A DNA stretch of 52,680 nt from a virus. The stretch's first letter is position 1. The number at the start of each line of letters is the position of its first letter. Of the stretch, positions 5,235-34,520 are shown in pieces. Position numbers and translations under genes: made by a program. The DNA is taken from positions 1-52,680 of IMG/VR virus record IMGVR_UViG_3300035670_000286, one strand, 5' to 3'. The notes beneath the pieces are model-generated. The model made no database searches and was not told the DNA's origin. It was given only the letters and a program-made list of their open reading frames with translations.

Positions 5235-5405
5235 TTATAGGATTTTTGGGTTTTTTCTCACTTTTTCGGTAGGATTTCCTCCGCATTCCTTGCAAATTAC
5301 CTGTAAGTGTTGCTTTTTTGATGCTCGGTCGAGGTCCTCTCGCTTGAAAAAATAACCGTTCGATGGTTTGTCTTTCTTGCACTTGGGACAAAAGAGTGTT
5401 TTCAT
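5235..5405 (-). CDS. small zinc-ribbon protein (56 aa)
   Basis: The protein starts MKTLFCPKCKKDK and has a second pair in VICKECGG, giving CxxC-x(~29)-CxxC, a zinc-ribbon pattern. The start codon overlaps the methyltransferase stop as ATGA (5402-5405), which strongly supports translation. A 68-codon frame on the same strand (5227-5433) is only a shadow of it. The protein is basic (KKDK, FKRED, RASKK, VRKNPK) and might bind nucleic acid or act with the methyltransferase. It is the last gene of the long operon. No specific function can be assigned. Confidence 0.75.
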   Translation of the reverse strand: MKTLFCPKCKKDKPSNGYFFKREDLDRASKKQHLQVICKECGGNPTEKVRKNPKIL

Positions 5406-6964
5406 GGCTTGTAGAATACAAAAATGGGTTCATATTTCAACCACATGCCGTTGACCTTACAAAAATTCTTCGCTTTAGGAAGTCCAGTCCCAGGATCGAT
5501 GCGGTTACCTCCAGGCATTTGTGCGAGAGACATTTTAAGAATGCCTTTATACTCCATGCCAAGTTCTCTGAGAATATTTATACTATCTTGTTCGAGTGGC
5601 AGCATGTCATTACCAAACTTTGCATCAGCAATGTTCCAAAGAAGATAACGATCATTGCGTAACCACTCTACTGCGGTTGTCAAAGTTGGTCGCAAGAAAC
5701 CTTCGCGCCATGCATCATATCCCGTAAACTTTTTATACGATTGTGTTGGGTCTTCGCTATACGCCTCTTTAGCAAAGTAAGGAGGTGAAGTGAACACCAT
5801 GTCTAACTTGCCTTTGTATTCTTGGAATCGTTTGTCTTCTCCAATGACTTCAGAACCCAATTGATATATGTCGAAAGTATTGGAACTCTCAAACAATACT
5901 CCAGAGTTCTTGGCGGCATTATAGAAATTAGCCAGATCGGCATACTTAGTAGAAGTATCACCACTATCGCTCCTAATAGTGTGATCAGTATTAGGATCAG
6001 TACCAACATAATGTAAGGGAGTGCTACTACGGACAGACATAGCACCGAGAATACGACCGCCCCAACCACTAGAGGGATCGTAAACCACAATTCTATCTTG
6101 TCCCTGAATGTGCTTTGTGAATTTTTCATAGAGATATTTTGCAGTCAATGGAGGAAAATTTACTGCGTATTGACACCACGATACGCGGAATGCTTTGAAG
6201 CCAAGAGGAAAAATTCTTTGTCCTAACTTGTATAAACGAATGCGATACTTCGATTGCTTCGCTTGAATATTCTTTAGGGTGTGTTCTTGACAAATGGTCA
6301 AGTTCGAAATTTCAAGATACTTTGCATCTTTGAGTTCTTCATTATAGCCAGTATACTCTTCGTCTTCGTCACGCGATTCTACCCAATAGTCATAACCGTA
6401 TTGACGAATGCTATTGTCTTCGAACCATTGAACGAATTCATCGCCTGTCTTGAATTTCTTTTTGTGTGTGCCGAACGTGAGAACCTCACCTACCTTAACT
6501 GTGTTAGAGTAGTGATAGAATGAATCACGCTTGTAATGTCTGCGGGCATACTTAAGAGTTTTGTCTAGCAAATCATCACGAACGAAATGGTCATAGATTG
6601 AAAGCCCGTCATCATTCTTAGTATAGTTGATGCGAGTCTTCATCATTGTAGGAAACCATTGATTAGCCGCATTACCAACAACGCTAGTGTTACGAATTAT
6701 ATCTTTCTCACCAGTCAGTTCATCGACTTGTTCGAATTCATGAACGGGAAAGCCATACATTTCTCGAAATTGCTTTCGAATTTCGTCTTCGTCCCAACCA
6801 ACCCTTGGAGGTTGATTAAGATTATCCCACGCATGAACAACCGCTTTACGCAAGTCAATAAACCATTGCTTGAATTCATCATCCGTCATCCATTGAATTT
6901 GTTCAAACGTCTTGTTTGTTTCGTGATTTAACAGCCAATCGTTTCGTTCATAAAAATGTTTCAT
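5402..6964 (-). CDS. DNA methyltransferase (N4-cytosine/N6-adenine type)
   Basis: A 520-aa protein. I start it at MKHFYER (6964), where ATGA overlaps the stop of the preceding gene, rather than three codons earlier. The SAM-binding loop is in YDPSSGWGGRILGA (about 294-308) and the catalytic motif IV is TSPPYF (about residue 390). The C-terminal EPIFVFYKP matches the last strand of amino-methyltransferases. SPPY in place of DPPY is commoner in N4-cytosine enzymes, but N6-adenine cannot be excluded. The order motif I then motif IV suggests a gamma-like arrangement. The first ~270 residues are not a standard methyltransferase part and may recognise DNA or a partner. No restriction enzyme is nearby, so this is probably a solitary enzyme protecting or marking phage DNA. 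Confidence 0.8.
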   Translation of the reverse strand: MKHFYERNDWLLNHETNKTFEQIQWMTDDEFKQWFIDLRKAVVHAWDNLNQPPRVGWDEDEIRKQFREMYGFPVHEFEQVDELTGEKDIIRNTSVVGNAANQWFPTMMKTRINYTKNDDGLSIYDHFVRDDLLDKTLKYARRHYKRDSFYHYSNTVKVGEVLTFGTHKKKFKTGDEFVQWFEDNSIRQYGYDYWVESRDEDEEYTGYNEELKDAKYLEISNLTICQEHTLKNIQAKQSKYRIRLYKLGQRIFPLGFKAFRVSWCQYAVNFPPLTAKYLYEKFTKHIQGQDRIVVYDPSSGWGGRILGAMSVRSSTPLHYVGTDPNTDHTIRSDSGDTSTKYADLANFYNAAKNSGVLFESSNTFDIYQLGSEVIGEDKRFQEYKGKLDMVFTSPPYFAKEAYSEDPTQSYKKFTGYDAWREGFLRPTLTTAVEWLRNDRYLLWNIADAKFGNDMLPLEQDSINILRELGMEYKGILKMSLAQMPGGNRIDPGTGLPKAKNFCKVNGMWLKYEPIFVFYKP

Positions 6965-7128
6965 AGGTCCCATTCACAGTTCGCATACCATATCGATTCA
7001 TATACACTTTTGCTTCGTTTAAATTCTTCAAAAAAGAATGTCATGAATTCTAGTTCAAGTCCACACTCTTTAGCCCATTCAAGTGATGCAATAAAGTCTT
7101 TTGCAGTCTTAATATCATCTTCATTCAT
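6961..7128 (-). CDS. small hypothetical protein (55 aa)
   Basis: I start it at MNEDDIKTAKDF (7128), which overlaps the stop of the preceding 57-aa gene by 8 bases, instead of an in-frame start at 7173 inside that gene. It ends EWDL with a TGA that overlaps the methyltransferase start. The protein is acidic and probably all helical (IASLEWAKECGLELEF, FFEEFKR). No recognisable family. The overlap on both sides supports real translation. Confidence 0.6.
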   Translation of the reverse strand: MNEDDIKTAKDFIASLEWAKECGLELEFMTFFFEEFKRSKSVYESIWYANCEWDL

Positions 7129-7294
7129 CGGAGTATTCTCTTCCACACTCAAATGCGGCTTGAAGCCATTCAATCATGCGTTCACGTTTAATATAGTCTA
7201 ACGCTTGAAACTCATCATGAAATCTTTCGAGCCTTAAGCAATATCCTTCTATCTCTTTAAAGTAGTCTTCAAATTTTTCGTATTTGTATTTCAT
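7121..7294 (-). CDS. small hypothetical protein (57 aa)
   Basis: A protein beginning MKYKYEKFEDYFKEIE and ending FECGREYSDE. Its start forms an ATGA overlap with the stop of the 73-aa gene (7291-7294), and its end overlaps the next start. It is charged, aromatic-rich and predicted helical by eye. The family is not recognised. Composition and second half (IEWLQAAFECGREY) resemble the next gene's FIASLEWAKECGLEL only loosely, so I do not call a duplication. Confidence 0.6.
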   Translation of the reverse strand: MKYKYEKFEDYFKEIEGYCLRLERFHDEFQALDYIKRERMIEWLQAAFECGREYSDE

Positions 7295-7512
7295 AGAAAA
7301 TCGTATGTCTTCTCAAAAATTTCTTTGTCGCAAATATACAGTTCGCCATCGATGCCTTTCATCAGATAGTCGCCTGCTTTACCTTGCTTGTAATTTCCTT
7401 CGAGTGTATTAACTCGAAATTCTTCTTCAATCTGTTTTGCTTGAACAACAATGGGTCGCTTCATGCAATTACTCATGTTGTCAACAGATTCAAACGTGTC
7501 AAAAACTTTCAT
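7291..7512 (-). CDS. PGDYL-type conserved hypothetical protein (73 aa)
   Basis: The protein contains KRPIVVQAKQI, then GDYLMKGIDGELYICDKEIFEKTY. This layout (substrate-independent GDY[LI]-x-K-G-x-x-GE-x-Y-x-C-x-x-x-I-F) is common in small phage and bacterial proteins of unknown function. A good GGAG site precedes the start, inside the end of the 36-aa membrane gene. I see no catalytic residues that would allow a function. Confidence 0.7.
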   Translation of the reverse strand: MKVFDTFESVDNMSNCMKRPIVVQAKQIEEEFRVNTLEGNYKQGKAGDYLMKGIDGELYICDKEIFEKTYDFL

Positions 7513-7619
7513 TTTAAAACTCCTATAATCATTCCTATCATCGGTATGATGACAAGTAACAGTCCAAATATCACTATAGCGAATAAAATTAGACTAATTG
7601 CTTTACTGATATATTGCAT
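7509..7619 (-). CDS. single-pass membrane microprotein (36 aa)
   Basis: The reading frame begins MQYISKAISLILFAIVIFG and is hydrophobic from about residue 8 to the GVLK end: one transmembrane helix with a short basic N-terminus. It overlaps the last 31 bases of the dCMP deaminase gene, and its stop overlaps the next start as ATGA. No convincing ribosome-binding site precedes it (AAATAA), so translation would depend on coupling. Its sequence fills a gap that is otherwise unexplained. Small membrane proteins of this kind are common in T4-like phages; role unknown. Confidence 0.5.
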   Translation of the reverse strand: MQYISKAISLILFAIVIFGLLLVIIPMIGMIIGVLK

Positions 7620-8038
7620 TTATTTAGGAAATCTATTCCGTCATTGTTGCGATATGCTTCACCATAGAAGACTTCTTGTATACCGCTTTGATATATCATT
7701 TTAGCACATTCTAAGCATGGAGCGCAAGTGATAAACATACTTGCACCATCACCACTTTCGGTAGACCTAGCCAACTTTGCGATTGCGTTTGATTCTGCGT
7801 GTAGAACCTCAGGCTTTGTTTTTAGGGTAGGACCGTCACCTTGCAAATAAGGAAGTGTTGGAGTTATTACGTCTTCGCATTCGTTAGTCCATCCACTTGG
7901 CATACCATTGTACCCAATGGAAATGATGCGGTTGTCTTTTACAACAACCGCACCCACCTGCTTTCGCTTTGCGGTGCTGAGTTCTGCAAAGACCTTTGCG
8001 GTCTTCATGTATGCACCGAGGTATTTTTCTTTAATCAT
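7589..8038 (-). CDS. cd: deoxycytidylate (dCMP) deaminase
   Basis: A 149-aa zinc-dependent deaminase of the CDA fold. The zinc site is HAE (H80, E82 catalytic) with PCLEC (C108, C111). The substrate region includes GYNGMPSG (42-49) and the N-terminal AELSTAKRKQVGAV stretch seen in dCMP deaminases and ComE-like proteins. The enzyme converts dCMP to dUMP, feeding thymidylate synthesis during phage replication. Its length is slightly shorter than the T4 enzyme (193 aa), lacking the extra T4 zinc segment. The start is fixed by an ATGA overlap with the preceding 50-aa gene. Confidence 0.92.
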   Translation of the reverse strand: MIKEKYLGAYMKTAKVFAELSTAKRKQVGAVVVKDNRIISIGYNGMPSGWTNECEDVITPTLPYLQGDGPTLKTKPEVLHAESNAIAKLARSTESGDGASMFITCAPCLECAKMIYQSGIQEVFYGEAYRNNDGIDFLNKCNISVKQLV

Positions 8039-8472: not shown

Positions 8473-9237
8473 TTAAGCGACATTCCAGATCAATGCTCCT
8501 TTCGTTCCGTTTGCTTTTACAAATTCCCATAACTTTGCATCATAATACTTTTCACTAGGATATGGGGGCGCATACTGCTCTTCGATTGCTTGATCATATT
8601 TGTATGGCGACCTCATTACTTCTGCACGACCTTTTTCATAGTCACTCATCTTGTGACCAATCTCAACCGCAAACGCAGGCACATCAGGAAATGCTAATTG
8701 CAATCCACGATTAAGTGTTCCGCTTGATGCGACTGTCCAGATTTGTGTAGGTTTGATTTTTAATGATCGTGCGACTTTGATGATTGATCCTAAGACGGTT
8801 GGGTGTTCAAGACCAAGAGGCAATACTCTACGACTAACAGTATCTTCTTCGTAGTATTTCCTAGCCTTTGCTTTGGTTACATTCAACATACCATTTGCTA
8901 CCCAATGAATAGTGCCGCCCATGTTTAAAACTTGTTGTTGATGCCAAGTTGGTGCAGCACGTTTAGCCATGAAAAACGTTGCTTTCTTTCCATATTTATT
9001 ACAAACGTGTGTTAGAGAAATAGGTCCCCATCCAACTTTGTTTGCACCACCGAAAACCCATTCATCACCCTCCGTGCTTACAAGATAGTCAATGAATCTT
9101 GCTTTACTTCCATAACCTAACTTATCATCACGAACAACATGAAACCCGTTATGTTCTTCTACTACTGGAGGCGGATAAGGGTCTTCCCATCCTTTAATTG
9201 TATCAAGATATTCTTCAGGTGTCAATAAGTTTAGCAT
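8473..9237 (-). CDS. fold-type II PLP-dependent enzyme (ACC deaminase / D-cysteine desulfhydrase-like)
   Basis: A 254-aa protein. VVRDDKLGYGSKARFIDYL (34-52) matches the PLP-lysine segment of the ACC-deaminase group (GGNKxRKLE), making K45 the likely Schiff-base lysine. It is followed by VFGGANKVGWGPISL and, later, WTVASSGTLNRGLQLAFP, which fits the phosphate-binding loop. It is shorter than ACC deaminase (~340 aa), mainly at the C-terminus. Such enzymes deaminate, desulfhydrate or substitute amino acids; the substrate is not predictable. Its start lies inside the hydroxylase gene (23-base overlap) behind GAGGAA, so the two are co-translated and may act on one substrate. Relation to DNA base modification is only a hypothesis. 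Confidence 0.75.
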   Translation of the reverse strand: MLNLLTPEEYLDTIKGWEDPYPPPVVEEHNGFHVVRDDKLGYGSKARFIDYLVSTEGDEWVFGGANKVGWGPISLTHVCNKYGKKATFFMAKRAAPTWHQQQVLNMGGTIHWVANGMLNVTKAKARKYYEEDTVSRRVLPLGLEHPTVLGSIIKVARSLKIKPTQIWTVASSGTLNRGLQLAFPDVPAFAVEIGHKMSDYEKGRAEVMRSPYKYDQAIEEQYAPPYPSEKYYDAKLWEFVKANGTKGALIWNVA

Positions 9238-10315
9238 GTAATTTTTCCTCTGTCACTATGTCTACGACAAGATGAATACGTTCTTCATCGCCGCCGTTTA
9301 CTGCCATATGTGCTTTGCGTGTATCTAGAAACCAGCACTCACCAACTTTCATATGCACCTTCTGTGCATTACCTTTTACATCCCAAACAGTAAACTCAAC
9401 TTTGTCGTTTGTCTTGATTGGAAAATGTAGTCTAGCAAGTTTACCTTTCGAGCCACCTGAGTCAGGGTCAACTTGGTCGGTATGGCGTTCAAGTTCTCCA
9501 CCACCAGGTTTCAATCGCATGAATCTAACGCGGTGTAATGTGCTTCCATAATTTTTCAATAGTTCTTTTACTTCTTCGAATTGTTCGAATAAGTGAGTGT
9601 CTTGCATAAAGAAGTTTTCGTCTTTGTGTTCTTCTTTCCACTTGTCGCTCATTTCGATTGGCTTGGTGATAAACTCTGGATTCGGAGAGTATCCACGCAA
9701 TGACAATGCCGACCATGATTTGTCCTTGTTGTAATTACTGTAATGATTGGTAAATGCAGGCAGTAAATTTAGTTTTGAATGTATCGATTCTATCACAGAA
9801 ACATCCACGTTGTCAACTTTCTTGATTGACAATAATTCAGCAGAGTCGAATTTGGGAAACTGTCGCGGCTTACCTCTGTAGTAAATTGCATAGATTTCTC
9901 CGTATGTGGTAATCTTAGGACCGGCATAACAGAATCCTAAATCTTCTGCTAGTTGACAATGTGCTTTGTTTTCTGCCCACACATACATCCAGCAATCTCT
10001 AGTCTTATATTTGACAATCTCAAGTTCAAGAATATCAGGTGAACCAACTAACTTACTGAAAGTGATATCGCCTTTTTGTTTCTTTGCAATAACAGTTTCG
10101 CCATGCATTGTGATGTTGCTTGCAGACTTTGATTCTGCAATTTCAAGCATAGTGTCATCAGTTAATTTAACTAGTGTACCTTTATGTAAAGATTCTGCAA
10201 TGTTATTCTTTTTAAACTTTGCAAAAGGAGAAAGTGTGTATGCATTGTAGTCTGCATATTTTGCTTCTAGACTTTTTAGATAGTCTAGTTCAAACCCATG
10301 TTGCCAATCTTTCAT
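9215..10315 (-). CDS. fusion: GNAT-like N-terminus plus aspartyl/asparaginyl beta-hydroxylase domain
   Basis: A 366-aa protein. The C-terminal half fits the 2-oxoglutarate/Fe(II) Asp/Asn beta-hydroxylase family: RFMRLKPGGGELERHTD (264-280), LARLHFPI (293-300), then GECWFLDTRKAHMAVN and ERIHLVVD. Likely iron ligands are H278, D280 and H336, with R346 binding 2-oxoglutarate. The N-terminal part (about 40-148) ends CWMYVWAENKAHCQLAEDLGF, the helix-loop pattern of GNAT acyltransferases, but I see no clear acetyl-CoA loop, so it may be a relic. It sits between peptide deformylase (ATGA overlap) and the PLP enzyme (23-base overlap). Hydroxylation of a protein side chain, amino acid or nucleotide is possible; the target is unknown. 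Confidence 0.75.
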   Translation of the reverse strand: MKDWQHGFELDYLKSLEAKYADYNAYTLSPFAKFKKNNIAESLHKGTLVKLTDDTMLEIAESKSASNITMHGETVIAKKQKGDITFSKLVGSPDILELEIVKYKTRDCWMYVWAENKAHCQLAEDLGFCYAGPKITTYGEIYAIYYRGKPRQFPKFDSAELLSIKKVDNVDVSVIESIHSKLNLLPAFTNHYSNYNKDKSWSALSLRGYSPNPEFITKPIEMSDKWKEEHKDENFFMQDTHLFEQFEEVKELLKNYGSTLHRVRFMRLKPGGGELERHTDQVDPDSGGSKGKLARLHFPIKTNDKVEFTVWDVKGNAQKVHMKVGECWFLDTRKAHMAVNGGDEERIHLVVDIVTEEKLHAKLIDT

Positions 10316-10911
10316 GCTTCATCCTTTTCATACCAAGTCTCAACTACTTGAGGAACAAGTTCAGTAGTACCATTCATTCTTTGTCTTTTAAAAAATTCAA
10401 CATTGGCTTTCTTATGCGCTCTCTTGAGAATCATTTGTTTTCTCGTTGCGCGTTCTAATGCAAATTTAGAAGCACGTTCTTTAAAAGTTACACCTTCTAA
10501 ATGATCATATTCATGCAGAATAACTCTTGCAGTCATACCACCATACTTTTCAGTGTGTGTTTCTCCATCTGACGTTTGAAAACGAATTCTAACCCAGTCA
10601 GGTCTTTTAATCTTCATATACAATAAAGGAAAACTTAAGCAACCCTCATCCAAAAGAATTTCGTTTTCGGACTGATCTACAATTATAGGATTAAAAATGA
10701 CAAGAGGATCAACATCAATTCGAATTGCAAAAATTCTATATGGTACGCCTACTTGATTTGCAGACAATCCTAAACCATTTCTCTGAGTCATGAGTGAATA
10801 TAACTCTTTCTCAAATTCAACGGGATCAAATGGCGGATTATTGAAATCAAATTCTAAACAAGGTTCTCTCAATCCTTTATGTGTTTCTGGAACTAAAGCA
10901 AGATTCATCAT
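10312..10911 (-). CDS. def: peptide deformylase
   Basis: A 199-aa metalloenzyme that removes the formyl group from nascent protein N-termini. All three motifs are present: GLGLSANQ (46-53), EGCLS (89-93, metal ligand C91) and HEYDH (133-137). Phage deformylases are known from cyanophages and other marine T4-like phages. This one carries about 50 extra residues after the HEYDH helix (basic, ending TWYEKDEA), unlike the short phage forms of ~130-150 aa that lack the C-terminal helix. Its start overlaps the gp46 stop as ATGA; a second ATG immediately follows. As part of the recombination operon it would be made early or mid infection. Confidence 0.93.
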   Translation of the reverse strand: MMNLALVPETHKGLREPCLEFDFNNPPFDPVEFEKELYSLMTQRNGLGLSANQVGVPYRIFAIRIDVDPLVIFNPIIVDQSENEILLDEGCLSFPLLYMKIKRPDWVRIRFQTSDGETHTEKYGGMTARVILHEYDHLEGVTFKERASKFALERATRKQMILKRAHKKANVEFFKRQRMNGTTELVPQVVETWYEKDEA

Positions 10912-12620
10912 TTTACAATCCTCGAAAAATTATTTACTTTCTCATATTTAATCGTGTGTGAAAACTTATCTTGAAGAATATCGCCTTTGTGGCTGATAAC
11001 AAACAGATTGGTGCTTTCAAGCATATCCAAAATCTTCATCAAGTCTTCAGTACCATTTGCATCGAGTGACGAATCAAAGATTTCATCAAGTATCAAAAGA
11101 TTTGTGCTTGCCGAATTCTTTAACTTAGCAACTGCACGCCATGTCAACATCAATGCCATATCGATACGTTGCTTCTCACCTTCACTAAATGATGCATAGG
11201 TGAAGTCATCGCGGTAACGCGACTTGATGGTTTCTTTGAAAGATTCATCAAGATTAAAATTCACAAAGAAATCTAATGAAGACAAATACTTGTTTACCAA
11301 CTTATTGATAACAGGAATGTATTGCTTGATGATCTTAGTTTTGATACCAGTATCTTTCAAAAGACTTGTAGCAGTTTCATAATACTGTCTTTCCTCAGAA
11401 AGAGTTTTCATGTTGGTTTCATGTTCAACAAGTTCCTCATTCAAAGTTATCAGTTTACGATTTTCTTCTTCAACATCTTCCTTTGAATTGCGAATGCGTT
11501 CAATGTCTCTTTTCAGAGTTTCAATATATCGTTTCTCTGCCGCAATCTCAGATTGAATTTCAGTCAGTTCAGATTTTTTAGTTGTAATCAGTTCTGAAAT
11601 GCGTTCAATCTCTTCCTGTCGTTCTGCTAGTTGATCAACTTCATCATTCAACTTATTCAAAGCATCTTCAACTTCTTTTAGTTTACCTTTACGTTCTTCG
11701 ACAATTGTATGCTTATGCTCATGAGGAATGCCTTGCTTACATGTAGGACATTCATCATTAGAATGATAGAAGTCAATATCAGCATTGACCTTAGTAATTG
11801 TCTTACTTAGGTTAGTTTTGATTGTAGCAAACTTGGATAGTTTACCATCGACCTTAGATTTGTCTGAAATTTGTATGCATAGATCAGACAAAATATTGGA
11901 TGTATCGGACTCTTTAGTTTGACTCTCGGCAATCTTAAACTCGGTGTTTGCAATTTCAAGTTCTTGTTGTGCAATCTTTGATTCAGTATTCTTCTTCAAG
12001 TTTTCAATAAACTGAATCTGCATCTGAATCTTTTCAGTCTTCAGATCAAAAGCATATTTCGCTTCTTGGTATTGTTCTTTGAGAATTTGAAACTTCTCTT
12101 TTAAAACACCATTCATGCGCGAGAAAATTTGAATGTCAAGCAAGTCTTCGATGATGGCTCTACGATCCGCAGCAGACAATTGCATGAACGGAGTAAATGA
12201 TGCGCTACCCAACATCACAATCTGAGTGAACGATTTGTAGTTCAACTTGAGAATGAATTTTTCAAGATGTTCTTGGTAGTCTTTGACTGCTGCGGATTGT
12301 GTAACAAGTGTGCCGTTACAATAAATTTCAAACACGTTCGGTTTAATGCCGCGAACAATTTTGTATGACTTATTACCTGCATCAAACTCAACTTCAACCA
12401 AGCAATCTTTTTCATTGATTGTATTGACTAACTGTGTTTTATTGATATTGCGAAATGCTTTACCAAACAAAACAAATGTCAATGCATCAAGCATAGTAGA
12501 TTTGCCCGATCCGTTTGATCCTACAATAAGTGTGGTTGTGTTATTACACAAGTCCATCTCGGTGAAGTAATTTCCGGTTGACAAGAAATTCTTCCATTTC
12601 AATTTACGAAATACAATCAT
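10908..12620 (-). CDS. gp46: gp46 recombination endonuclease subunit (Rad50/SbcC-like)
   Basis: A 570-aa SMC-like ATPase. Walker A is GSNGSGKS (34-41); the ABC signature is SEGEKQR (about 475); Walker B is LLILDE (about 507). Between them is a long coiled coil with a zinc-hook CPTC near residue 291. It pairs with gp47 to process DNA ends for the recombination-dependent replication of T4-like phages. The start codon overlaps the gp47 stop as ATGA. Length agrees with T4 gp46 (560 aa). Confidence 0.96.
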   Translation of the reverse strand: MIVFRKLKWKNFLSTGNYFTEMDLCNNTTTLIVGSNGSGKSTMLDALTFVLFGKAFRNINKTQLVNTINEKDCLVEVEFDAGNKSYKIVRGIKPNVFEIYCNGTLVTQSAAVKDYQEHLEKFILKLNYKSFTQIVMLGSASFTPFMQLSAADRRAIIEDLLDIQIFSRMNGVLKEKFQILKEQYQEAKYAFDLKTEKIQMQIQFIENLKKNTESKIAQQELEIANTEFKIAESQTKESDTSNILSDLCIQISDKSKVDGKLSKFATIKTNLSKTITKVNADIDFYHSNDECPTCKQGIPHEHKHTIVEERKGKLKEVEDALNKLNDEVDQLAERQEEIERISELITTKKSELTEIQSEIAAEKRYIETLKRDIERIRNSKEDVEEENRKLITLNEELVEHETNMKTLSEERQYYETATSLLKDTGIKTKIIKQYIPVINKLVNKYLSSLDFFVNFNLDESFKETIKSRYRDDFTYASFSEGEKQRIDMALMLTWRAVAKLKNSASTNLLILDEIFDSSLDANGTEDLMKILDMLESTNLFVISHKGDILQDKFSHTIKYEKVNNFSRIVK

Positions 12621-31190: not shown

Positions 31191-32741
31191 TTACGTCCAA
31201 GGCTCATCGTCTGGTTTAAACTCTAAGGTTGGTTGAACTTTAATGGGAACCCATGAGTGATATGATGTGGACTGACTAATCGTTGGATAATAATTCATAT
31301 CCGAACCCCAAGATACAGTTTGTCCTCTCATAATTCTTGTATTCACAATTCTAAACTGTGCTCCAGCCCCACCGTCTGCGTTTTGATAGTTTCTATGATA
31401 AACAAAGTTTGCGCCGCCAGCAGGAATAATGAAATATCCACCGGTGGAATCCTGATTGGTAATCTGCATCCAATGAACGTCTTCGTTACCAGTTCCGCTT
31501 GGAGTTGATGAAGCAGTATCTAGAACAAAACTGCAAAGTCCACCATGATAGTAGTAATATGGAACAAATACCGCAACTCTAGAGTTATCATCCGAGTTGA
31601 AGTGAGAGATACCATATTGCTGACCGCTACTGCCGTTATAAGATGTTGTGGTGCTGATAGTTGAAACTTGAGTCCATGATGTGTAAACTCCAGCAGTAGT
31701 ATTGCGATACAGTCTAAGTGTGCCGCTTGAACCATTGCTGTGGTCCCAACCAACAAGCCACATAGAATCATCATCGCATAGAATTACTTTAATCTGCTGA
31801 GAGCAAAAATCGGTAGTATAACCGTTACTCCATGATGGTAGCGTGAAGTCATGATATGAATATCGTGAACCACCTGCGTCAACTGCTGCATCCCACGCAT
31901 CAAAAATTTCGCTAGTTTTTGTTGCTTTGCTAATCTTCATCTGAAGATCGATAAGATGTAGTCTGAATGATGCTGTTGTATTACTACGATTCTCTAGATA
32001 AGCAATCTTACCAGTATTTCTATTATGGCAAATCATGCCGTAATTTCTATACGCAGAACTGTTGTTCGATGTGTCGGTGTTGGTAGTTACTCCTGGTGTT
32101 GCATATCCTAATCCTAATGATTGACCTGAAGGAGAACCATACTGAGAACCTGACCACATCTGCTGACTTACAAAAAAGAAATCTTGATCAATCGATGATG
32201 ATTGCCAGTTTGTGCTAGACACCATTGATTTAATAGGGCGTTTAAAAATTTTACCATTATATGCAATCAAGTCATACGTCTGATTCCATCTTGCTTCGCC
32301 AATTACAATTCCACTAAATTGCTTATTTGTGTTGGTTGAGCCTGCTCTATTACCAAAATAAAAATGACCATTGTCAAACGCATCAAAATTTAAGTAAGAA
32401 CCAGTTTGATGCACATATGGTGATCCAACATAGGCCGATGATGGAGACCAACTTTCGGATGATGTTTGAGATGTGCTTGCCGCAACATATTGAGATACCG
32501 ATGGTTCATCAGCGGTAAATGCTCTAGGTGCACCAACGTTTCCTTGTGAACTGCCGTGACCATAATCGCATGTCATCGGAACCGTAGGGTTCTTTGCAGA
32601 AAACGTTAGATAAAAATGATTTGTTGATGATGGGCCCGATCCGTTTGTAGTCGCAACGTATCCCCATACTGGACGAGCAGGATAGTGACCTAGATAACCA
32701 CCTGTCGTATTTGTTGTAACTGTGTCTAGTGAAATTGACAT
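31191..32741 (-). CDS. tail-fibre/adhesin-like virion protein, paralogue B
   Basis: A 516-aa protein, Ser/Thr/Tyr/Gly-rich and beta-strand-rich. It is clearly paralogous to the 509-aa gene two positions upstream: both have RPVWGY...TTNGS.PSSTNHF near residue 22-45, MICHNRNT.K.AYLE in the middle, SDDNSR.....YYYY, and (Y/F)PTI.QSTSY.SW.P.K.QPT.EFKP at the end. I do not recognise a named family. Position in the fibre region and repeated aromatic blades suggest a receptor-binding or fibre-tip protein; a propeller-like fold is a guess. It is followed by a strong terminator. Confidence 0.75.
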   Translation of the reverse strand: MSISLDTVTTNTTGGYLGHYPARPVWGYVATTNGSGPSSTNHFYLTFSAKNPTVPMTCDYGHGSSQGNVGAPRAFTADEPSVSQYVAASTSQTSSESWSPSSAYVGSPYVHQTGSYLNFDAFDNGHFYFGNRAGSTNTNKQFSGIVIGEARWNQTYDLIAYNGKIFKRPIKSMVSSTNWQSSSIDQDFFFVSQQMWSGSQYGSPSGQSLGLGYATPGVTTNTDTSNNSSAYRNYGMICHNRNTGKIAYLENRSNTTASFRLHLIDLQMKISKATKTSEIFDAWDAAVDAGGSRYSYHDFTLPSWSNGYTTDFCSQQIKVILCDDDSMWLVGWDHSNGSSGTLRLYRNTTAGVYTSWTQVSTISTTTSYNGSSGQQYGISHFNSDDNSRVAVFVPYYYYHGGLCSFVLDTASSTPSGTGNEDVHWMQITNQDSTGGYFIIPAGGANFVYHRNYQNADGGAGAQFRIVNTRIMRGQTVSWGSDMNYYPTISQSTSYHSWVPIKVQPTLEFKPDDEPWT

Positions 32742-32990: not shown

Positions 32991-34520
32991 TTATTCCTCC
33001 CAACTTGGCTTAAATTCAATCGTAGGTTGAATCTTCATAGGGAACCAACTCTGATATGATGTGGACTGACCAATTGTTGGGAAATATCTCCAAATCAAAG
33101 ATGTTGAAGAAATTGTATCACCAAACATTCTACCAGAGCAATTCAAATACATACCTGCTGCGCCAGAACCACCGTCTTGGTTCTGAGAAAGTTGTCCTAC
33201 CAAAAAGTCTCCATTTCCTGTTGGAACAACCGCTCTAGAGCCAGCACCTGACGCTTGGTCTTCATACTTTCTCCATCTAACATCATCACCTGAAGCATTT
33301 GCAGACTCGGTACTTACAATAAATCCAACGAGACCGGACATATAGTAGTAGTATGGTGCGTAGATGAAGATTCTAGAGTTATCGTCAGAGTTCATATGAC
33401 GAATACCATAGTTGTAACCTTGAGCAATATTATATGAAGTGGTAGTTGAAGATGTTGAAACGGAGGTCCATGTTGCATAAGTTGAAGTATCGGTACACTT
33501 ATAAAGTCTCATTGTTCCACCGCTTGACGAATCATTTTTGTCCCATCCGCTAATCCACATAGTATTATCATCACACAAAATAACTTTCATCATTTGTGAT
33601 GATTGAACAGTCTGTGCCTGACTCCAAGAAGGTAACGAAATATCATAATAGTTGTATCGCGAAGACCCTGCGGCTACAGCACTCTCAATCCAAGTTTTAA
33701 CTTCAAGTGTTGTGGTATTTTGAGAAATCTGATTCTGCAAATCAACGATATGCAGTCTCCATGTGCCTGTTGTGGATGAAGATTCAAGATAAGCAAGTTT
33801 GTTGGTATTTCTGTTGTGGCAGATCATACCATAGTTTCTAAAATAACTTGAATTGTTTGCAGTTGTAGTTGTTGTCTCTAATGTAGCCGCACCATAACCT
33901 TTGCTCACACCAGATGGAGAACTATACTGAGAACCAGTATACATGTTCGATCCGCTGAAGAAAAACTCAGGATTGACTGATGGTGATGTAATATATGCGT
34001 TATTCATACCGATAGGCATCTTCATAATCTTACCTTGATATGCGATCAAATCATAAGTTTGATTGAATCTACGCTCACCTACAATAATTCCACTATGAAC
34101 TGGTGCATAGTTGAAGTTTTCGGTATATGTAAAGTTAAAGGAACCGTTATCAAATGCTCTGAAAAATGCTCCGCAACCTGTATTGTAACTTTGTGGGCAT
34201 CCAACATAGCCTGATTGTGGAGAGAAACTCTCACTTGAAACTTGTGTGCCAGAACTTCCTGCAAAATAATAACCTGAAGTCATTGCTTCGTTAGAACCTT
34301 CAGGAACAGTTCTAAGAACGTTAGCCTGTGAAGAACCTGAACCATATGTTACTGTCATTGGCGTCCATGGGTTTTTGGAGAATGAAGTAAAGAAATGGTT
34401 TGTTGATGATGGTTGCGAACCATTGGTGGTAGAAATATATCCCCAAACAGGGCGTTCAGGAAAAATACCATTATAAAGTGGTGCGTTATTTCCTAGTAAT
34501 GTATTAAGTGTTGTTGTCAT
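32991..34520 (-). CDS. tail-fibre/adhesin-like virion protein, paralogue A
   Basis: A 509-aa protein paralogous to the 516-aa gene downstream (shared RPVWGY, TTNGSQPSSTNHF, NYGMICHNRNTNKLAYLE and the terminal YFPTIGQSTSYQSW motifs). Divergence is greatest in the segments between the shared motifs, as expected if the surface loops contact different receptors. No enzyme motif is seen. An AAAGGAG site precedes the start. Role inferred from position. Confidence 0.75.
   Translation of the reverse strand: MTTTLNTLLGNNAPLYNGIFPERPVWGYISTTNGSQPSSTNHFFTSFSKNPWTPMTVTYGSGSSQANVLRTVPEGSNEAMTSGYYFAGSSGTQVSSESFSPQSGYVGCPQSYNTGCGAFFRAFDNGSFNFTYTENFNYAPVHSGIIVGERRFNQTYDLIAYQGKIMKMPIGMNNAYITSPSVNPEFFFSGSNMYTGSQYSSPSGVSKGYGAATLETTTTTANNSSYFRNYGMICHNRNTNKLAYLESSSTTGTWRLHIVDLQNQISQNTTTLEVKTWIESAVAAGSSRYNYYDISLPSWSQAQTVQSSQMMKVILCDDNTMWISGWDKNDSSSGGTMRLYKCTDTSTYATWTSVSTSSTTTSYNIAQGYNYGIRHMNSDDNSRIFIYAPYYYYMSGLVGFIVSTESANASGDDVRWRKYEDQASGAGSRAVVPTGNGDFLVGQLSQNQDGGSGAAGMYLNCSGRMFGDTISSTSLIWRYFPTIGQSTSYQSWFPMKIQPTIEFKPSWEE

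Follow-up and report, generated by a model that had tools for sequence, protein, structure and literature searches.

A probable phage DNA-base hypermodification cassette combining a methylase-family protein, a PLP enzyme and a 2OG-Fe(II) hydroxylase

In a 52,680-nt stretch of DNA from a T4-like phage (the window), a PLP enzyme and a two-domain GNAT-fold/hydroxylase protein are probably the tailoring parts of a DNA-base hypermodification cassette arranged around a DNA methylase-family protein (Table 1). The constant partner of the hydroxylase and PLP genes is this methylase, not the peptide deformylase. Because relatives of the two enzymes lie beside or inside a DNA methylase, they most likely help to build a decorated base rather than acting as partners of the deformylase. 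An earlier, sequence-only reading of this DNA had listed base modification as one option; with the methylase neighbourhood and the PLP-methylase fusions described below, that option holds much more strongly than its reader could have known, DNA being the presumed substrate.

Gene layout and enzyme families

Three overlapping ORFs, all on the minus strand, encode the deformylase, the GNAT/hydroxylase protein and the PLP enzyme, an arrangement that the sequence-only reading had described and that coordinates and translation bear out. The deformylase and hydroxylase ORFs share 4 nt (10312-10315), the hydroxylase and PLP ORFs share 23 nt (9215-9237), and the gp46-like gene upstream likewise overlaps the deformylase by 4 nt. 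The whole window has 51 pairs of neighbouring genes on the minus strand, and 17 of these pairs overlap. The overlaps in the cassette are therefore no proof by themselves of the fixed stoichiometry that had been read from the overlapping starts, and start-codon overlap was dropped as a sign of coupling. Other small genes separate the PLP gene from the methylase gene.

Table 1 Features of the cassette region in the window
Feature	Coordinates	Strand	Basis
DNA amino-methyltransferase-like protein, 523 aa	5402..6973	-	PF01555, phrog_12517, motifs, neighbourhood
Methylase motif I, DPSSGWGG	6056-6079	-	
Methylase motif IV, TSPPY	5777-5791	-	
dCMP deaminase	7589..8038	-	PF00383 2.5e-22, phrog_174 9e-49
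Fold-type-II PLP enzyme, D-cysteine desulfhydrase/ACC deaminase-like group, 254 aa	8473..9237	-	phrog_7093, model, Foldseek, K45
K45 codon	9103-9105	-	
GNAT-fold domain + Asp/Asn/Pro-type 2OG-Fe(II) hydroxylase, 366 aa	9215..10315	-	PF05118, model, Foldseek, LilMcDreamy homologue
GNAT-fold N-terminal domain, ~residues 1-165, acetyl-CoA loop shortened	9821..10315	-	hhalign, model alpha-beta order, alignment loop gap
2OG-Fe(II) hydroxylase domain	9215..9763	-	conserved motif
Hydroxylase residue codons H278, D280, H336, R346	9482-9484, 9476-9478, 9308-9310, 9278-9280	-	
Peptide deformylase, 199 aa	10312..10911	-	PF01327

By family and modelled fold, the third ORF was confirmed as a predicted PLP enzyme of fold type II that most resembles D-cysteine desulfhydrase and ACC deaminase, in line with the ACC-deaminase-like assignment made earlier. 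Its protein matches phrog_7093 (1.3e-25), which PHROGs labels 'threonine dehydratase'. The Pfam PALP match is weak in the window protein (0.012), and relatives score above the PF00291 cut-off (3.5e-10 to 2.4e-11). Foldseek matches of the predicted structure (pLDDT 94.9) include 4d8w (E 3e-10) and 1j0a (TM 0.83), with TM ranging from 0.68 to 0.83 by query; identity to known enzymes in the structure matches is 11-16%, and the protein has no significant PDB sequence match and no NCBIfam equivalog match. The Schiff-base lysine position had been placed correctly at K45, which is invariant in 180/180 homologues. The phage family also conserves an RDD...GxKxR lysine motif and a glycine loop.

Residues 191-354 of the two-domain protein match PF05118 (4.8e-14; 52.9 bits against a Pfam cut-off of 22.6). 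The predicted structure of the 366-aa protein (pLDDT 93.5) has a double-stranded beta-helix fold in the hydroxylase domain, and its Foldseek neighbours are proline cis-4-hydroxylase 4p7w, beta-hydroxylase 7v4f and AspH. The four residues singled out by the sequence-only reading are conserved: H278 and D280 in 105/105 homologues, H336 and R346 in 104/104 readable ones, the same number in which HxD...H is whole. Family, fold and residues confirmed this part of the second ORF as a predicted PF05118-type 2OG hydroxylase. Structure searches, proposed earlier as a check, thus gave both PLP and 2OG hydroxylase folds.

The GNAT domain, whose fusion to the hydroxylase had also been recognized correctly, aligns (hhalign, 93.5%) with stand-alone GNAT genes of sister phages, themselves PF00583 matches, and the alpha-beta order of the model fits GNAT topology. 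In the alignment, the acetyl-CoA pyrophosphate loop (Q/RxxGxG/A) reads QGSGNA in the split GNAT genes and is missing from the fused domain of the window, which we therefore label GNAT-fold only, not acetyltransferase. Sister phages carry hydroxylase and GNAT as separate genes, or GNAT alone, directly before the methylase.

The methylase partner and its fusions

The window methylase matches phrog_12517 (3e-9) and, below the Pfam cut-off, PF01555 (5.6e-4); a relative (L061) lies above that cut-off. Motif I (DPS[SA]GW) and motif IV (TSPPY) are conserved in 19 aligned homologues, and by these motifs the product is a putative N4-C/N6-A DNA amino-methyltransferase.

In homologue samples collected by similarity, 41/41 distinct hydroxylase loci have the methylase within 4 kb, and it is near the PLP gene at 45/50. 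Among 188 distinct PLP homologues, the methylase is fused in 6, directly adjacent in 66 and within 4 kb in 68; that leaves 48, of which 44 lie on stretches that are cut short. Anchoring on the methylase instead, 43 loci comprised 24 with both hydroxylase and PLP genes, 13 with the hydroxylase only, 6 with neither and 0 with PLP only. The suggested co-occurrence of hydroxylase and PLP genes was thus upheld in part: both stay with a DNA methylase or another base-modification gene, but the two do occur apart. PLP co-divergence, corrected for gp46/gp47, is strongest with the methylase (partial r 0.36-0.46). In T4-like loci, the genes may have stayed together partly through inherited synteny. The same trio was seen again in L246, a siphophage-type locus that is not T4-like, and in L091, whose PLP and methylase genes are divergent.

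In some relatives the two proteins are one. The PLP domain is inserted within a ParB-methylase ORF, between motifs I and IV, in the cultured Erythrobacter phage ZS04 and in four metagenomic loci (L225-L228). In gp1 of Erythrobacter phage R6L the PLP match lies inside the methylase gene as annotated for R6L, and in L097 the PLP domain is fused C-terminally to the methylase. Methylase relatives also occur in Bacteroides, Mammaliicoccus and Vibrio phages, with no hydroxylase or PLP gene among their annotated neighbours, so the methylase also occurs without both.

Other relatives sit beside different base-modification genes. Mycobacterium phage LilMcDreamy encodes a full-length homologue of the window hydroxylase protein (TM 0.83), whose immediate neighbour is a gene of the amino acid:DNA transferase family (PF18724 2.7e-12); a ParB-like gene and a weak match to TET/JBP are in the same locus. 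In three further lineages (L103, L104 and L107), which have no methylase near the PLP gene, that gene lies near a relative of the T4-type dCMP hydroxymethylase (PDB 1b49, E 6.5e-65; PF00303 4.5e-22). Two neighbouring ORFs in L103 had no match in Pfam, PHROGs or phage records, or to the LilMcDreamy transferase gene. PF00303 had no match in the 52.7-kb window record or in 16 related virus records, all of them possible fragments.

A proposed cassette and competing readings

In the cassette that we favour, the methylase-family protein would bind DNA, present N4 of cytosine or N6 of adenine, and use SAM; the SPPY motif gives a mild preference for cytosine as the target base. The PLP enzyme would make or reshape an alpha-amino-acid-type group on, or meant for, the base, the hydroxylase domain would hydroxylate this group and the GNAT domain would bind or acylate it. 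The modified base may shield phage DNA against host nucleases, and the deformylase would not be required. A bolder version, possible but somewhat doubtful, is that the methylase-family protein does not methylate the exocyclic amine of cytosine or adenine but, together with the PLP domain, loads an alpha-amino-acid group onto it, for example the aminocarboxypropyl of SAM, or an alanyl group via PLP beta-replacement from a serine derivative, with later tailoring by the hydroxylase and GNAT domains. If true, DNA modification would gain a new chemical class, and we know of no earlier DNA methylase that has a PLP active site built in.

The sequence-only reading had identified the peptide deformylase correctly (PF01327 7e-33, 113.9 bits; TIGR00079 above cut-off; motifs GLGLSANQ, EGCLS and HEYDH) and had coupled the enzymes to it, perhaps in sequential action on one substrate, with a protein N-terminus among the options. 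We consider such coupling, with action on protein N-termini, highly improbable. The deformylase is directly upstream in many T4-like loci (near the hydroxylase in 27/41, near the PLP gene in 25/50), and its residual co-divergence with the methylase is 0.63 (n=27, gp46/gp47-corrected), so it is not wholly dismissible. However, the corresponding values are -0.02 with the hydroxylase and 0.05 with the PLP gene, the deformylase is absent from 45/45 siphophage/prophage (ParB/methylase-type) loci, and in L107 it adjoins gp46 without methylase or hydroxylase. The deformylase is probably a neighbour outside the cassette. The dCMP deaminase is a variable neighbour, found in only part of the loci.

Two other readings keep the enzymes off DNA. 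An ordinary N4/N6 DNA methylase might be accompanied by a PLP enzyme and hydroxylase whose substrates are free small molecules, or which regulate the methylase (for instance through SAM or amino-acid supply during infection), with fusion serving joint expression only. The intact motifs I and IV fit this, as do the nearest hydroxylase folds (4p7w and 1e5r), which act on free amino acids, and the characterized PLP relatives, which use free D-cysteine, ACC or threonine. Yet inserting a PLP domain inside the methylase fold is a costly route to co-expression, and two gene placements also argue against this reading: a gene of the amino acid:DNA transferase family neighbours the hydroxylase, and a relative of dCMP hydroxymethylase accompanies the PLP gene. 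We regard the reading as unlikely. Auxiliary amino-acid metabolism, in which the PLP enzyme would serve the host as threonine dehydratase, ACC deaminase or D-cysteine desulfhydrase and the hydroxylase would make a free hydroxy-amino acid, agrees with the PHROG label and the fold match, but it is quite improbable given the low identity to known enzymes, the lack of a significant PDB sequence match and the fusion or adjacency to DNA methylases.

The hypermodification reading would matter in several ways. By hypermodifying their DNA, phages defeat restriction and CRISPR nucleases, and the pathways are a source of new nucleic-acid enzymes. The methylase, PLP and hydroxylase/GNAT set, partly fused, recurs in several hundred metagenomic phage loci, which points to undescribed modification chemistry, and it corrects the annotations 'threonine dehydratase' and 'DNA modification methylase'. 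Parts of the set occur in the cultured phages ZS04, R6L, Microcystis phage Mae-JY30 and LilMcDreamy, and because isolates exist the cassette is directly testable. In the sources searched, none of these phages has a modified nucleoside on record, and the literature searched gave no published description of the cassette, which the DNA-modification survey of Iyer et al. 2013 may mention.

Comparison with known systems

Phage Mu Mom has a GNAT-like fold and acts on DNA bases (adenine modification); a relationship of the GNAT domain to Mom was rejected, as hhalign gave ~2% and no sequence-profile relation was detectable. The window hydroxylase shares the 2OG-Fe(II) fold and HxD...H...R with proline cis-4-hydroxylase, type II proline 3-hydroxylase, AspH and 7v4f, which belongs to a nucleoside-antibiotic pathway; unlike these, it is fused to a GNAT-fold domain and lies in a DNA-modification neighbourhood. 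The PLP enzyme has the fold of D-cysteine desulfhydrase and ACC deaminase, but is shorter (254 vs ~325 aa), is only 12-15% identical to them and has methylase-fused or methylase-adjacent relatives.

The decarboxylases known from phage thymidine/pyrimidine hypermodification pathways are of a different fold type from the window PLP enzyme. Those systems (a hydroxymethylase or TET/JBP, a PF18724 transferase and tailoring enzymes) resemble the cassette in gathering tailoring enzymes for amino-acid-like groups at one locus, and the LilMcDreamy homologue of the hydroxylase sits in such a locus. In contrast, the window lineage has no hydroxymethylase-family gene in view, and its core is an amino-methylase-family protein.

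Phage and prophage ParB-N6_N4 methylase fusions have been surveyed (PMC12704722), and the Erythrobacter, Microcystis and prophage members of the cassette share their architecture. Varied NTP binding has been reported for the ParB/Srx fold (PMC12704722), and a serine kinase role for this domain, by analogy with SerK (PMC5120207) and SbnI, is only a lead. The main text of the survey contains neither 'pyridoxal' nor 'PLP'; relative to the surveyed fusions, cassette members have a fold-II PLP domain in addition, either inserted or adjacent.

Enzymes encoded by the overlapping genes

All three overlapping minus-strand genes and the catalytic residues named in the sequence-only reading are present in the window. 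The peptide deformylase is canonical (PF01327, 7e-33). ORF 2, the GNAT/hydroxylase protein, matches PF05118 over residues 191-354 (4.8e-14), and its relatives in the PDB hydroxylate free amino acids (L-proline cis-4-hydroxylase, 3.8e-10). Its predicted fold (mean pLDDT 93.5) matches 4p7w (E 1.2e-11), AspH and 7v4f (TM 0.74 by target), a hydroxylase from a nucleoside-antibiotic pathway; the top viral structure match is a full-length protein of Mycobacterium phage LilMcDreamy (TM 0.83). All 105 hydroxylase homologues keep HxD, and all 104 that can be read further on keep the distal H and R, bearing out the proposed hydroxylase.

The GNAT-like label also stands. The predicted model shows a GNAT topology for the N-terminal part. 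Three sister phages (L355, L360, L366) encode the two domains as separate genes, the smaller matching PF00583 (up to 7.9e-07) and the ORF 2 N-terminus (hhalign 93.5%). In these phages and in L353, L356 and L378, what stands directly before the methylase is either the split pair in reversed order relative to the window fusion (hydroxylase, then GNAT) or GNAT alone. The acetyl-CoA loop is missing from the window version, which makes acyl transfer uncertain.

ORF 3 alone matches PALP weakly (0.012) and phrog_7093 clearly (1.3e-25). Its predicted fold (pLDDT 94.9) matches D-cysteine desulfhydrase (E 3e-10), threonine deaminase and the ACC deaminase homologue 1j0a (TM 0.83), and K45 is invariant in 180 homologues, in agreement with an ACC-deaminase-like PLP enzyme.

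Features in the window and in related loci
Feature	Position	Remarks
Peptide deformylase (ORF 1)	10312-10911 (-)	
GNAT/hydroxylase (ORF 2)	9215-10315 (-)	366 aa; H278, D280, H336, R346
PLP enzyme (ORF 3)	8473-9237 (-)	254 aa; K45
PGDYG-family protein	7291-7512	small; PF14083, 4.5e-07; between deaminase and methylase
Methylase-family protein	5402-6973 (-)	motifs I and IV
Neighbouring large paralogues	31191-32741; 32991-34520	51% identical over 519 aligned positions; structural-gene half of window
LilMcDreamy gp2	L096:855-1784	RefSeq 'queuine tRNA-ribosyltransferase'
Two ORF families	L103:1081-2115; L103:2118-3074	relatives in L104, L107, L100
Small second N6_N4 methylase homologue	L088:4865-5512; L091:4408-5073	after hydroxylase cassette

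Association with the methylase-family gene

Coupling to the deformylase, earlier read from the overlapping starts, was not upheld. Overlap alone is uninformative, since 17 of 51 consecutive minus-strand gene pairs in the window overlap. Neighbours were counted in distinct loci that extend 3.5 kb or more to either side. The methylase-family gene (window 5402-6973) lies no more than 4 kb from the hydroxylase in 41/41 and from the PLP gene in 45/50, whereas the deformylase does so in 27/41 and 25/50. The loci were collected by similarity to window proteins, and the counts describe the family, not independent trials; the loci at large are related to one another and often truncated, and the window itself is a 52.7-kb fragment. 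With the gp46 and gp47 distances regressed out, the PLP gene co-diverged most strongly with the methylase (0.36-0.46), hydroxylase-methylase reached 0.19-0.24, and the deformylase co-diverged with the methylase (0.63) and with neither hydroxylase nor PLP gene. The real partner of both genes thus appears, from these gene patterns, to be the methylase-family protein. The suggested hydroxylase-PLP co-occurrence held in part: of 43 methylase-anchored loci with enough upstream sequence, 24 carry both, 13 the hydroxylase only, six neither and none the PLP gene only.

Recurrence beside base-modification genes

In Erythrobacter phage ZS04, a single 812-aa protein joins ParB-like, methylase and PLP domains, with PLP between motifs I and IV, as in four metagenomic loci (L225-L228); gp1 of Erythrobacter phage R6L, annotated as a DNA modification methylase, contains the same PLP match. 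A methylase-PLP fusion (L097) carries PLP C-terminally. ParB, methylase and PLP genes are adjacent in dozens of prophage/siphophage loci and in Microcystis phage Mae-JY30. Outside the T4 group, L246 combines methylase, two-domain hydroxylase and PLP. L091 holds a hydroxylase, a divergent PALP protein (PF00291, 7e-13) and an N6_N4 methylase. The small second methylase homologue of L088 and L091 may be catalytically changed, as its motif IV is SVPD/SPPD versus SPPY.

LilMcDreamy encodes, in order, a ParB-like protein, a weak TET/JBP match, a PF18724 amino acid:DNA transferase and the hydroxylase homologue. The RefSeq label of its gp2 looks doubtful, the sole Pfam lead being TET/JBP (0.0022, below cut-off). 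In three T4-like loci (L103, L104, L107) the PLP gene lies near a dCMP-hydroxymethylase relative, and no methylase was seen near it. Two ORF families sharing operons with this T4-type relative, dCMP deaminase and the PLP homologue matched nothing in Pfam, PHROG or phage records, and are candidate new base-modification enzymes.

DNA base modification, raised earlier as one option, would be the common denominator of these seven contexts (ZS04-type fusions, L097, Mae-JY30-type loci, L246, L091, LilMcDreamy and L103/L104/L107), with DNA as the presumed substrate.

Proposed chemistry and relation to known systems

The core protein of the cassette carries a SAM motif and an SPPY (or CPPY) motif, and the accessory enzymes (PLP enzyme, amino-acid-type hydroxylase, GNAT-fold domain) are each of a type that works on alpha-amino-acid-like groups. 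Read most economically, an amino-acid-type group would be placed on a DNA base and then tailored. The analysis shows the fusions, the gene neighbourhood and the catalytic residues; the DNA substrate, the identity of the group and the function are inferred. For the methylase-family protein, transfer of an aminocarboxypropyl group and a role confined to holding the base in position for the PLP domain are, even together, rather unlikely; it may instead transfer methyl.

A survey of ParB-fold fusions reported N6_N4 methylase fusions in phages (PMC12704722). Its main text mentions neither pyridoxal nor PLP, and the open-licence literature searched yielded no description of this phage gene set with PLP enzyme and methylase. 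On these grounds we place the set among phage DNA hypermodification systems as a new form; categorically new chemistry is possible.
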